Assembly (NCBI GenBank): GCA_011176545.1
Contig: DUEN01000002.1
Span: forward strand, 16,830 to 80,829
Source: Caldilineae bacterium
GTDB lineage: Bacteria; Chloroflexota; Anaerolineae; DUEN01
Direction: 5' to 3'
DNA length: 64,000 bases
The notes beneath the pieces were generated by a model. That model had not been told where the DNA came from and did no database searches. It worked only from the letters and a program-made list of their open reading frames with translations. The translations under genes were made by a program, and so were the position numbers. Each line of letters opens with the position of its first letter. Within the stretch, counting starts at the first letter, position 1. Below are positions 57,107-63,943 of this stretch, in pieces.

Positions 57107-57290
57107 AACCGCAAAGGGCGCAAAGAGCGCTAAGGTCTTCAAAATGCGTCTCTTCACTTTTTGAATAGAGTTGGTGCACAATAGTCGCGCCTACAAAATG
57201 CTGTGCCTTTTACCTAACTTATGCAACGGCTCTAATGTCAAATGAACTCTTTTGAACTACCTTTGCGTCCTCTGCGCTCTTTGCGGTTAG
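57107..57290. repeat. Dispersed inverted repeat, AACCGC...GCGGTTA family, copy C (longer interior)
   Basis: aaccgcaaagggcgcaaagagcgctaaggtcttcaaa ... ctttgcgtcctctgcgctctttgcggttag. Confidence 0.85.
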
Positions 57291-57307
57291 ATAGAGTAAA
57301 CGGAGAT

Positions 57308-58579
57308 ATGAACACGATCACGTTAGATTTGACGGGCATCGCCCATGGAGGCGAGGCGTTCGGGCGTCATGGCGGCAAGGTGATCTTCGTCGCCTATGCC
57401 CTCCCCGGCGAGCGCGTCGTCGCCCGCGTAGTGGAGGAGCATCGGAGCTGGGCGCGGGCGGAGCTGGTGGAGGTGCTGACCCCCGCGGAGGATCGGATCG
57501 AGCCACCGTGCCCTTATTTCGGGCCTGACCAGTGCGGCGGCTGCCAGTGGCAACACATCCGCTACGAGCGTCAGCTCGTGCTCAAGCAGGAGGTCGTGAT
57601 CGACCAACTGCGCCGCCTGGGACATATACCTGAGCCGCCGGTCCGCCCGACGCTGGCCGTGGGGGAGCCCTTCGGCTACCGCAATCACGTGCAACTTGCA
57701 GTGGACCCAGAGGGGCGGCTGGGATTCCGCCGGGCAGGCAGCCAGGACGTCATCCCCATAGATCGGTGTTTGCTCCTGCACCCCATGCTGGACGAGCTCT
57801 ACCACACGCTGGAGCTCGGCGACGAAGAGGAGCCGGCCGCCCAACTGGCCGGATGGTTGCATCGGGTCACATTGCGCGTCGGCGTGACCACCGGGCAATC
57901 CCTGGTGATCTTCGAAACCCGCCGAGATGAGCTGCCCGAACTGGAGGTGGACTTCCCAGTCTCATGCGTTCTGCTCACGCGAGGCGGGCAAACGCAGCCC
58001 CTCATAGGGCCGCCGTACATCGAGGAGGGCGTCGCAGGTCGCAGGTATCGCATCTCGGCCAATAGTTTCTTCCAGGTGAACACCCCGGGCGCGGAAGTGC
58101 TGGTGAGCCTGGTCAGAGAATACCTCGACCCCCATCCGGAGGAAACCCTGATCGACGCCTATTGCGGTGTGGGGTTGTTCGGGCTGGCCATGCAGGGCCG
58201 GATCGGCCGGTTGATCGGCATCGAGGAAAGTCCCGACGCCTGTGAGGACTTCGCCTGGAACGCGCAGGACTGGGAGCCGGAGCGCGTCGAACTCCACGAG
58301 GGTAGGGTAGAAGAGGTGCTCAGAGTCATCAACGAGCCGATCGATTTAGTGGTGGTGGATCCCCCGCGCGCTGGCGTGGGGAAGGAGGCCCTGGCAGAGC
58401 TGACCCGGCTGGCCCCGCGTCGCATTGTCTACGTCTCCTGTGATCCGGCGACCCTCGCCCGCGACGCGGCGTACCTGCAAGCTCATAAATATCGCCTGGT
58501 CGAGGTGCAGCCGGTTGACCTGTTCCCACAGACTTTTCACATCGAGTCAGTGAGCCTGTGGACCCGTGATGAAGGATAA
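57308..58579 (+). CDS. 23S rRNA (uracil-C5)-methyltransferase, RlmD/TrmA family
   Basis: TRAM-like N-terminus; CPYFGPDQCGGCQWQHIRYERQLVLKQEVV; LIDAYCGVGLFGL; VVDPPRAGVGKEAL; VYVSCDPATLARD. Confidence 0.95.
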   Translation: MNTITLDLTGIAHGGEAFGRHGGKVIFVAYALPGERVVARVVEEHRSWARAELVEVLTPAEDRIEPPCPYFGPDQCGGCQWQHIRYERQLVLKQEVVIDQLRRLGHIPEPPVRPTLAVGEPFGYRNHVQLAVDPEGRLGFRRAGSQDVIPIDRCLLLHPMLDELYHTLELGDEEEPAAQLAGWLHRVTLRVGVTTGQSLVIFETRRDELPELEVDFPVSCVLLTRGGQTQPLIGPPYIEEGVAGRRYRISANSFFQVNTPGAEVLVSLVREYLDPHPEETLIDAYCGVGLFGLAMQGRIGRLIGIEESPDACEDFAWNAQDWEPERVELHEGRVEEVLRVINEPIDLVVVDPPRAGVGKEALAELTRLAPRRIVYVSCDPATLARDAAYLQAHKYRLVEVQPVDLFPQTFHIESVSLWTRDEG

Positions 58580-58587
58580 CCGTCGGT

Positions 58588-58616
58588 TTGACACCTCCCG
58601 CCGGATATGCTAATAT
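58588..58616 (+). promoter_or_regulatory. Sigma70-like promoter of the lysine operon leader
   Basis: TTGACA (58588-58593) - 17 nt - TAATAT (58611-58616). Confidence 0.75.
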
Positions 58617-58652
58617 CTCGCTGCGAAAAGCATCTCGTGAGGATTTGTATTC

Positions 58653-58712
58653 ATGTCTTTCCTTCCTCTCCTCGTCAAGAAGCAGAGCAAGGCCAAGAAG
58701 CCGGACCGCTAG
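58653..58712 (+). CDS. Putative Lys-rich leader peptide MSFLPLLVKKQSKAKKPDR
   Basis: 19-aa ORF with five AAG Lys codons (58677-58700), ends at TAG 58710-58712 just before the terminator/antiterminator region. Confidence 0.72.
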   Translation: MSFLPLLVKKQSKAKKPDR

Positions 58713-58753
58713 GTCTGGTTGACGGCGTTTGCTCCGCGAGCGAGAGGAGTCAC

Positions 58754-58793
58754 GACCAGCTCAGCCAGACCGGCAGCGCGAGCTGGTCTTTTT
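58754..58793 (+). terminator. Rho-independent terminator (attenuator) upstream of homocitrate synthase
   Basis: 9-bp perfect arms GACCAGCTC/GAGCTGGTC, then TTTTT. Confidence 0.85.
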
Positions 58794-58824
58794 GTTGTCT
58801 GGTGGTCTTCAGCGAGGGTTCGTC

Positions 58825-58893
58825 ATGTCAGTTTACGGTAATGCGAACGTCAAGTGCGGCAAGTGCAAGCGGCCAGGCCGCGAGTCTGGCTAG
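58825..58893 (+). CDS. Second putative leader mini-ORF MSVYGNANVKCGKCKRPGRESG
   Basis: 22-aa ORF with three Lys AAG codons and a CxxC; followed by further inverted repeats. Confidence 0.4.
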   Translation: MSVYGNANVKCGKCKRPGRESG

Positions 58894-58920
58894 CTGCGCT
58901 GCGCCGTAGACGTTCGCAGT

Positions 58921-60259
<1,339 letters not shown>

Positions 60260-60260
<1 letters not shown>

Positions 60261-61552
60261 TGGGCAAGACGTTCGCCGAGAAGGCACTGGCGCGCGCCGC
60301 CGGGGTCTCCGATGTCACCGCCGGGCAGGTGATTGACGCCCGACCGGATGTGATCCTGTCCCACGATAACACCGCGTCCATCGCCCAGACGTTTTACTCC
60401 CTGGGTGTCGATCGGGTGAAGCATCCGGAGCGGGTGGCCATCGTGCTGGATCACGCCGTTCCGGCCCCCACCACGCGCCACGCGCAGAATCACGCCGAGA
60501 TCCGGCAGTTCGTGGCGGAACAGGGGATCACGCACTTCTTCGATGTGGGGCGCGGCATCTGCCATCAGGTGCTGAGCGAGGAGGCCATCGTCCTCCCCGG
60601 CCAGCTTATCCTGGGAGCCGACTCCCACACGACGCACTACGGCTGGATGGGCGCGTTCGGCGCTGGCGTGGGTCGCAGCGAGGTGGCCGCGCTGTGGGCT
60701 ATCGGGGAGCTATGGCTGCGCGTACCCGAGTCGATTCGGGTCATCCTGGACGGCGAGCTCCCGCGCGGCGTGACGGCCAAGGACTTCGCGCTGCGCCTCA
60801 TCGGCGACCTGGGCGCGGATGGCGGGATCTATATGTCCATCGAGTTCGGCGGCTCCGGCATCGAAGCCATGTCCGTGGAATCCCGCATGGTGTTGCCCAA
60901 CATGATGGCCGAGATGGGGGTTAAGAACGCGTACGTCGCGCCCGACGCGACCGTGTTCGACTGGCTGGCGCCGCGACTGGCGAGGCGGACCGGCCGCGCC
61001 GTCGATGAGTGCCGGGCGGAGATCGAGGCCGGCGCGCTGTATCCGGACCCGGATGCCGAATACACCGCCGAGTACCAATACAATGCCACGGAACTGGAGC
61101 CGTATGTGGCCTGCCCACACTCCGTGGACAACGTCGTGCCGCTGTCGCAGGTGGCGGGCACCCCGATACAACAGGCGTTCCTGGGCACCTGTACCAACGG
61201 CCGGCTGGAGGACATCGCCGCCGCGGCCGAGGTGGTGAAGGGGCGCCGTGTAGCGCGGGACACGCGCTTCCTGGTCATCCCGGCGTCCAGCCAAGTTCTA
61301 CAGGAGGCCATGGAGCACGGCTATATCCAGACGCTGGTCGAGGCGGGAGCGATCATCGGCGTGCCGGGGTGCGGACCGTGCATGGGCAACCATATGGGCA
61401 TCCCGGCCCCGGGCGAGGTCACCATCTCCACGGCTAACCGTAACTTTCGCGGGCGCATGGGCACGCGAGAGGCGGAGATCTATCTGGCAAATCCGGCGGT
61501 GGTGGCGGCGTCCGCCATTCAAGGGGCGATCGCCGACCCGAGGGAGTTGTAG
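60260..61552 (+). CDS. Homoaconitase/isopropylmalate isomerase-type large subunit
   Basis: [73 protein letters not shown]. Confidence 0.93.
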
Positions 61553-61588
61553 GCGTGGAGCGGGGAGCGGAGAGCGTGGAGCGAGAAA

Positions 61589-61646
61589 CGCCTTACGTTT
61601 TACGGAATACGCAATGCGGAATACACAACACATAAAACGTAAGGCG
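61589..61646. repeat. Inverted repeat made of CGTAAAA-type words between large and small homoaconitase subunits
   Basis: cgccttacgtttta (61589-61602) / taaaacgtaaggcg (61633-61646), 14-bp perfect. Confidence 0.9.
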
Positions 61647-61666
61647 TAAATGACAGAGGATCCGCC

Positions 61667-62191
61667 ATGAGAATCCAAGGCCGAGTCTGGAAATACGGCG
61701 ACAACGTGAACACCGATGTCATCTTCCCCGGTAAGTACACCTACACCATCACCGATCGTCGGGAGATGGCCCAGCACGCGCTGGAGGATCTGGACCCAAG
61801 CTTCGCGAGCAACGTGCAGCCCGGCGATGTGATCGTGGCCGGGCGCAACTGGGGATGCGGCTCCAGTCGGGAGCAGGCGGCCATCTGCCTGAAAGAGGCA
61901 GGGGTGGGCGCCATCGTGGCTGAATCGTTCGCCCGCATCTTCTACCGCAACGCGCTCAACAACGGCCTGCCAGCCATCATCTGCCCGGAGGCAGCCGCCG
62001 CATTGGAAGCCGGCGACGCGGTGGAAATCGATTTAGAGGCTGGAACGATCCGACGAGGAGACGATGCGTGGCACTTCCCGTCGTTGCCGGAGACGGCCCT
62101 GCAACTGATCCAGGCGGGAGGGTTGATCCCATACCTTAAGCGGAAGCTGGGGACGATGCGTGGCACGGAATACGCAATACATAATGCGTAA
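61667..62191 (+). CDS. Homoaconitase/isopropylmalate isomerase-type small subunit
   Basis: [70 protein letters not shown]. Confidence 0.93.
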
Positions 62192-62666: not shown

Positions 62667-63668
62667 ATGAGTCATCGCATCTGCGTCATCGAGGGAGACG
62701 GCATCGGTCAAGAGGTCATCCCAGCGGCCGTAACTGTGTTACAGGCCACCGGCGTCGATCTCACGTTCGAGCACGCCGAGGGCGGCTTCGGCTGCTTCCA
62801 GCGACGCGGCACCGCGCTACCTCCGGAGACGTTGGCGCTGGCCCAGGAGTGCGACGCGGTCCTGTTCGGCGCCACCCAATCGCCTTCCGGCAAGGTGGAC
62901 GGGTATCGCAGCCCCATTCTGGAGCTGCGCCGGGAGCTGGACCTCTACGCCAACCTGCGCCCCGTGCACTCGCTGCCGATCCTGGCCAGCCGCCCGGGGA
63001 TCGACCTGCTCATCGTGCGGGAGAACACGGAGGGGCTGTACGTACGTCGTGAGTGCAGTGACGGCGAGATGGCCATCGCCGAGCGCGTCATCACCCGCCG
63101 GGCATCGGCACGCATCATGCGCGTGGCCTGCGAACAGGCTCGAAGCCGTCGCGGCCACGTGACGCTGGTGCACAAGGCTAATGTGCTCGTCGAGACCGAT
63201 GGCCTGTTCCGTCGGACAGCGCTGGAGGTGGCAGAAGCCTATCCAGACGTTCAAGTGGACGAGTTGCTGGTGGACACAGCGGCCATGCGTCTGGTACAAT
63301 CGCCTGAGAGATTCGACGTCATCGTCACCACCAACCTCTACGGCGACATCTTGAGCGACGAGGCGGCCGGGCTGGTGGGGGGCCTGGGGCTGGCTGCGTC
63401 AGCTAACGTCGGCGATCGACACGGGCTGTTCGAGCCCGTCCACGGCTCGGCCCCGGACATCGCCGGCCGCGGCATCGCCAATCCCATCGCCGCCATCCTG
63501 GCCGGCGCGCTGATGCTGGACTTCCTGGGCGAGTCGGAAGCCGCCGACCGCATCCGGGCAGCCGTGCTGGACGTCCTGGAGCATGGCCCTCGCACGCCCG
63601 ACCTGGGCGGTAACGCCCGCACTATCGACGTGACGCAGGCGGTCGTGAGAGGACTGCGTGATGCATAG
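62667..63668 (+). CDS. Homoisocitrate/isocitrate-type dehydrogenase
   Basis: [90 protein letters not shown]; assignment from operon context. Confidence 0.9.
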
Positions 63669-63766: not shown

Positions 63767-63943
63767 ATGGCCGAAGTAAAAACCGCCGAATGCCCTGAGT
63801 GTGCTGCTGAGATCGAGCTGAGCGATGTGATCGTCGGCGAGATCATCGAGTGTCCCGATTGCGGCGTGGAATTAGAGGTGCGAAACCTGGATCCGCTGGA
63901 ACTTGATCTGGCCCCACAGGAAGAGGAAGACTGGGGCGAATAA
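63767..63943 (+). CDS. lysW: LysW amino-group carrier protein (58 aa; absent from ORF track)
   Basis: [58 protein letters not shown]: two CPxC zinc-ribbon pairs and the EDWGE C-terminus. Confidence 0.95.

Follow-up and report, generated by a model that had tools for sequence, protein, structure and literature searches.

A putative lysine-codon transcription attenuator ahead of an alpha-aminoadipate lysine operon in Chloroflexota, on an RNA chassis shared with arginine and proline genes

How is the lysine operon of this Caldilineae bacterium, a member of the class Anaerolineae in the Chloroflexota, controlled, and what is the purpose of the short, lysine-rich reading frame and hairpin that lie between its promoter and its first gene? 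The stretch of DNA that was analysed, referred to here as the window, is 64,000 nucleotides long. We consider it very likely (a probability of about 0.9) that positions 58588-58793 encode a ribosome-mediated transcription attenuator of the alpha-aminoadipate lysine operon, and that this attenuator is one member of a Chloroflexota family in which a conserved RNA chassis is combined with a codon cassette. Attenuation by lysine was also the original prediction for the locus, and it is upheld by those tests that can be computed.

The genes 3' of the leader constitute the LysW branch of the alpha-aminoadipate lysine pathway, as had been claimed, and are assigned as follows.

59064-60260, plus strand: homocitrate synthase (hcs); TIGR02146, 502.6 bits (cut-off 413.6)
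60260-62191, plus strand: homoaconitase-family large (60260-61552) and small (61667-62191) subunits; protein-family search
62667-63668, plus strand: isopropylmalate/homoisocitrate dehydrogenase; TIGR02088, above cut-off
63785-63940, plus strand: lysW; TIGR01206 (G000:C112:80614-80769)

On the same strand a gene at 57242-58579, which we take from sequence alone to encode a 23S rRNA methyltransferase, ends just upstream of the promoter at 58588-58616. The parts of the leader itself are listed below, and this anatomy is shown by computation.

58588-58616, plus strand: promoter TTGACA-17-TAATAT with TG ahead of the -10; sequence, conserved in relatives
58653-58712, plus strand: leader ORF 1, MSFLPLLVKKQSKAKKPDR; sequence, in-frame codon bias in relatives
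58677-58700, plus strand: regulatory Lys codons, five AAG in eight codons; six-frame scan, position in relatives
58685-58734, plus strand: outer protector stem between the Lys-codon segment (58685-58694) and 58724-58734; fold, covariation z -8.2
58699-58720, plus strand: inner 1:2 hairpin around the stop, AGCCGGACC / GGTCTGGTT; fold, consensus pairs in 29 leaders
58712-58771, plus strand: antiterminator 2:3, 58712-58720 with 58763-58771; swap tests, stall folding
58754-58793, plus strand: intrinsic terminator 3:4 with T5; sequence, swap tests (z -13 to -20), consensus fold

The promoter, which runs from TTGACA at 58588 over a 17-nt spacer to the end of TAATAT at 58616, is the sole promoter-like site within 2.5 kb. 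Leader ORF 1 comprises 19 codons, from an ATG at 58653 to a TAG at 58710-58712, and has a weak and distant Shine-Dalgarno sequence. Its codons 9-16 include five AAG, and this is the single stretch with at least five Lys in eight codons across all six frames of the 64 kb. The terminator is built from the arms GACCAGCTC (58754-58762) and GAGCTGGTC (58780-58788), followed by T5 at 58789-58793, and the leader folds better than 200 of 200 shuffled sequences (z -3.3). The promoter, the 19-codon ORF, the five AAG codons, the stop and the terminator had all been predicted, and all are found at these positions. The predicted pairing of GGTCTGGTT with AGCCAGACC is likewise strongly supported; the alternative that had been offered, CTGGTTG with CGACCAG, failed, reaching a probability of no more than 0.20, and is negligible. 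The original prediction was also incomplete in that it overlooked the longer stem between the Lys codons (58685-58694) and the post-stop segment (58724-58734), a second leader in tandem (58825-58966), and the membership of the element in a larger family that carries Lys, Arg or Pro codons on the same chassis.

As criteria for an attenuator we used a short leader ORF containing a series of cognate codons, a 1:2 protector or pause hairpin overlapping those codons, mutually exclusive 2:3 and 3:4 pairings, and an intrinsic terminator with a U-tract ahead of the first gene. The first three are met, with translation and pausing inferred and the exclusive pairings conserved by covariation; the fourth is met by this first element and failed by the second. 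In the proposed mechanism, a ribosome supplied with charged Lys-tRNA would reach the stop codon and cover segments 1 and 2, so allowing the 3:4 terminator to form. Were Lys-tRNA short, the ribosome would stall at the AAG codons and cover segment 1, segment 2 (GGUCUGGUU) would pair with segment 3 (AGCCAGACC) while arm 4 is still to be transcribed, and RNA polymerase would continue into hcs. Translation, stalling, termination and a response to lysine in the cell are all inferred, as there are no RNA or expression data.

The switching itself is shown thermodynamically. When the RNA of the window leader is free, or a ribosome is placed at the stop, the terminator has a probability of 0.93-0.98; with the ribosomal A site on Lys 13, 15 or 16, the antiterminator rises to 0.97-1.0 and the terminator falls to 0-0.02. 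The masked-folding check that had been proposed thus gave the predicted switch. For 55 representative leaders, equilibrium folding with the complete terminator produced switching in just 16, which implies that in most leaders the antiterminator has to form first and that switching depends on the order in which the parts are transcribed. In place of this calculation the leaders were folded with terminator arm 4 still to be synthesised, co-transcriptional order being assumed. With the ribosome 5-10 codons ahead of the stop, 54 of the 55 leaders then had at least four 2:3 pairs; with the ribosome at the stop, none of the 55 did. The number of 2:3 pairs peaks at 14 when the ribosome is 9-10 codons before the stop and is 0.9 at the stop, and in the relatives Lys codons are most frequent 7-10 codons ahead of the stop, matching the optimal stall zone.

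Relatives of the leader were sought by collecting homocitrate synthase orthologues from 296 genomes of the class together with a named collection, and by examining up to 1.2 kb upstream of each. This gave 86 leaders in 79 hcs loci, mainly of Chloroflexota, in which an intrinsic terminator follows a small ORF that is Lys-rich near its end. The ORF and its Lys codons are thus retained in homologous leaders, as the proposed conservation check required, with the proviso that these 86 leaders were selected for at least three Lys; only the R2 set described below is free from this bias. Some relatives, in which hcs is not the first gene, have no leader before it. A handful of probable false matches was dropped before the structure tests, leaving 82 leaders. 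Many of the ORFs carry K-K-x-S-K-x-K-K-P-D-x-x-S-G-stop or close variants, and the N-terminal codons vary freely. Across the 82 leaders, so chosen, in-frame AAR codons number 279 against 12 AAY, and out-of-frame AAG is far rarer. A promoter-like site precedes 62 of 85 lysine leaders, where 5.4 would be expected by shuffling; this bears on the start-site check that had been proposed, the start itself being inferred.

Covariation was measured with a swap test, in which arms are exchanged between loci (20,000 permutations) so that true pairing is separated from shared composition. Own arms outperformed exchanged arms for both the antiterminator 2:3 (z -7.2 to -11.2) and the terminator 3:4 (z -13.6 to -19.8) at all levels of redundancy in the hcs set, none of the 20,000 permutations was as good in either case, and two control pairings gave no such signal. 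It is therefore shown by computation that the terminator and antiterminator both covary; stem covariation in relatives had been proposed as a check. Examples include the replacement of GTCTGG/CCAGAC by GTCGGGTGCCG/CGGTATCCGAC in L055 and by TTCGGGC/GCCCGAA in L122, and RNAalifold finds changes on both sides in 9 of 15 consensus pairs, mostly in the terminator. The hcs set is uninformative on the 1:2 stem because this is too conserved, and the stem becomes testable only across amino-acid classes. Since the rows are related, the permutation counts are not strict probabilities and are inflated by kinship; many of the sequences are MAG contigs, and all of the evidence is computed from sequence.

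The chassis is not confined to lysine genes. A covariance model built from 29 lysine leaders (R1) also matches leaders before argC (E 1.9e-12), argG (3.2e-11) and proS (6.4e-7). A second model (R2), which covers only the part 3' of the codon window and includes members from all classes, has matches in 140 of 248 class genomes. The main clusters of genes 3' of the fetched R2 matches are argC (44, an assignment above the curated cut-off), lysX (20, behind lysW in the cases inspected), argG (13) and proS (7); there are further small groups with Pro leaders, at least three of which are then followed by proS. The home genome has its own arginine member on another contig, where MTMFLSRARSPRSPRRMQPDRWSG precedes argC (L309, G000:C54:12824-12924, minus strand).

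The match between codons and genes was assessed on the R2 chassis-only matches, using a frame choice blind to composition and the ten codons before the chassis. These codons are 30% Lys for lysW-lysX, 28% Arg for argC, 29% Arg for argG and 35% Pro for proS. Overall, 228 residues match the downstream gene, compared to 146 +/- 10 after permuting the gene labels (0 of 20,000), so that this match too is shown computationally. Swap tests on the chassis set gave z -9.3 for 2:3 and z -8.2 for the codon window with the post-stop segment, the latter meaning that the stem arm changes along with the codon cassette. The family would hence comprise a conserved RNA chassis with an exchangeable cassette of Lys, Arg or Pro codons. 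Synonym choice within the cassettes is distinctive: AGG accounts for 62 of 120 Arg codons in argC leaders versus 32 of 848 in the genes behind, CGA for 29 of 38 in argG leaders versus 8 of 350, and AAG for 53 of 56 Lys codons in lysW-lysX leaders versus 97 of 173. Theory predicts a particular choice of synonyms for the regulatory codons of a sensitive attenuator (PMC1183508), and the leaders agree with it, though stem pairing may explain a part of the bias.

R1 matches the window twice, at 58677-58796 and at 58849-58966, the second match marking a tandem copy.

58825-58893, plus strand: leader ORF 2 (tandem), MSVYGNANVKCGKCKRPGRESG; three Lys codons invariant in three genomes
58873-58966, plus strand: second chassis copy; independent matches to R1 (E 5.1e-6) and R2 (E 4.8e-8)
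58983-59059, plus strand: hairpin predicted to cover the ribosome-binding site of hcs, formed by 58983-58996 and 59046-59059; folding

The second copy has a hairpin at 58873-58889, segment 3 at 58929-58934 and a stem of 58921-58930 with 58947-58956. Three genomes of the family preserve its three AAG codons while neighbouring codons differ, and in each of them the U-tract of its 3:4 stem is absent. Ten genomes have tandem copies, spaced 130-414 nt apart, and several of these have two good terminators. Separately, the hairpin that would hide the hcs ribosome-binding site is conserved in the three genomes. Control of this hairpin by the second leader was considered and is unsupported, as leader 2 does not switch it in folding.

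Three rival explanations were weighed. The one that survives best concerns the second leader only, and holds that it acts on translation by switching the hairpin over the ribosome-binding site of hcs. It is favoured by the stem without a U-tract and by the pairing of 58983-58996 with 59046-59059 over the Shine-Dalgarno sequence. However, the hcs site is hidden at every ribosome position in two of the three genomes, and stems without a clear U-tract occur in other Chloroflexota too, from which the stem of leader 2 may be a weak or factor-dependent terminator, or one in decay. We regard a translational action as unlikely.

Less credible still is an untranslated structured RNA, binding a ligand or protein, in which stem pairing alone accounts for the Lys codons. 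AGCAAG repeats do pair with the post-stop CTTGCT, so some of the Lys conservation is imposed by structure. Against this, codon identity tracks the pathway (Lys, Arg or Pro) on one chassis, AAA AAA Lys codons are found where the stem is altered (L079, L085, L175), in-frame AAR lies far above AAY and other frames, and no Rfam family matches the window; this reading is very improbable. That the hairpin merely terminates the upstream methyltransferase gene, with an ORF there by chance, draws on that gene ending at 58579 on the same strand but can be all but dismissed, given the conserved promoter in between, a leader that stays constant while the sequence 5' of it varies between loci, and a 2:3 covariation for which a plain terminator has no role.

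Attenuation at 58588-58793 therefore remains the preferred reading, and the mechanism is an already known, classical one. The 1:2, 2:3 and 3:4 logic and the cognate codons are shared with the trp, his, leu and thr attenuators of Proteobacteria and with Actinobacteria leaders (PMC1183508, PMC1262725), although no single sequence chassis is known to serve several amino acids among those. The nearest lysine precedent is in Thermus thermophilus, for whose lysine cluster leader-peptide attenuation is reported (Tsubouchi et al. 2005, J Biol Chem). That system reportedly has the same pathway, homocitrate synthase first, a leader peptide with Lys codons, and transcriptional attenuation; it differs in belonging to another phylum, whereas the leaders here share their chassis with arginine and proline genes and occur in tandem. 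The tandem attenuators of Salmonella mgtCBR (PMC3641672) similarly place two short ORFs within one leader. They are a different system and respond to different signals, whereas both Chloroflexota copies use codons for a single amino acid. The L-box riboswitch also controls lysine genes, and the T-box also acts through uncharged tRNA, but neither Rfam covariance model matches the window or nine related loci. Indeed, Rfam as a whole gave no match in the window and only an unrelated CRISPR repeat among the nine member loci.

Leader-peptide systems were described in 2010 as known only in Proteobacteria and Actinobacteria, to which that survey added Firmicutes; Chloroflexi went unmentioned (Naville and Gautheret 2010, PMC2965389). 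A search of the open-access literature yielded no paper on attenuators in Chloroflexota; the 'lysW' of PMC5584792 is a transporter and not the carrier protein. As far as that literature and Rfam extend, the chassis and its codon re-targeting are likely to be undescribed. The work points to leader-peptide attenuation as a common means of amino-acid control across a large and poorly studied phylum, and provides a searchable covariance model. It also offers a natural series, one RNA scaffold bearing different sensing codons, with which it can be tested whether codon replacement alone gives attenuators a new specificity, and whether regulatory codons are picked among synonyms for sensitivity to starvation.

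Beyond the home lineage, lysine leaders stand before hcs in other Chloroflexota lineages, several genomes having no clear U-tract in the stem. In Acidobacteriota with a close homocitrate synthase, the chassis stands ahead of hcs and lysX, and its leaders contain fewer Lys codons. This would be compatible with transfer together with the lysine genes, a possibility for which there is no tree. A bolder reading, which we hold to be somewhat more likely than not, is that one ancestral attenuator RNA spread in Chloroflexota, and with the lysine genes into Acidobacteriota, and was repeatedly re-aimed by cassette exchange, the facing stem arm changing in step. Its targets would be hcs and lysW-lysX for Lys, argC, argG and carA for Arg, and proS operons for Pro, with a rare codon particular to each gene type (AGG for argC, CGA for argG) and tandem copies acting as serial gates.

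A number of individual members deserve mention. In another Chloroflexota lineage (L243, L244, L246-L248, L252, L254), a conserved small ORF, such as MKHIASVSPIAYTPRYCRPELFGSCQVRE, separates a leader hairpin without a clear U-tract from hcs and extends into the start of hcs. Four Acidobacteriota loci (L402-L405) have a near-identical chassis before lysX, with the leader AKGHCRGAKRPGHDPG and two Lys codons in the window of codons, possibly a weaker or changed sensor. Pro-rich leaders (L303, L305, L266, L267, L307, L350, L400) precede prolyl-tRNA synthetase either directly or by way of small genes (MazG-like, SLOG, phosphoesterase). In L380 and L383 the Pro-rich leader MLAVLQPLPYKRPQPQPPKWAAG is followed by an HMGL-like (homocitrate/isopropylmalate synthase-like) gene, whose relation to the Pro codons is uncertain. 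The chassis also lies ahead of LysE-type exporter genes (L264, L268, L259), two of these leaders being Gln-rich (MNNSQRQQPASRSG, SQQRGQQQPDRRSG) and one Lys-rich. Finally, a match to the CRISPR direct repeat RF01356 lies near a chassis member at L245:450-473.
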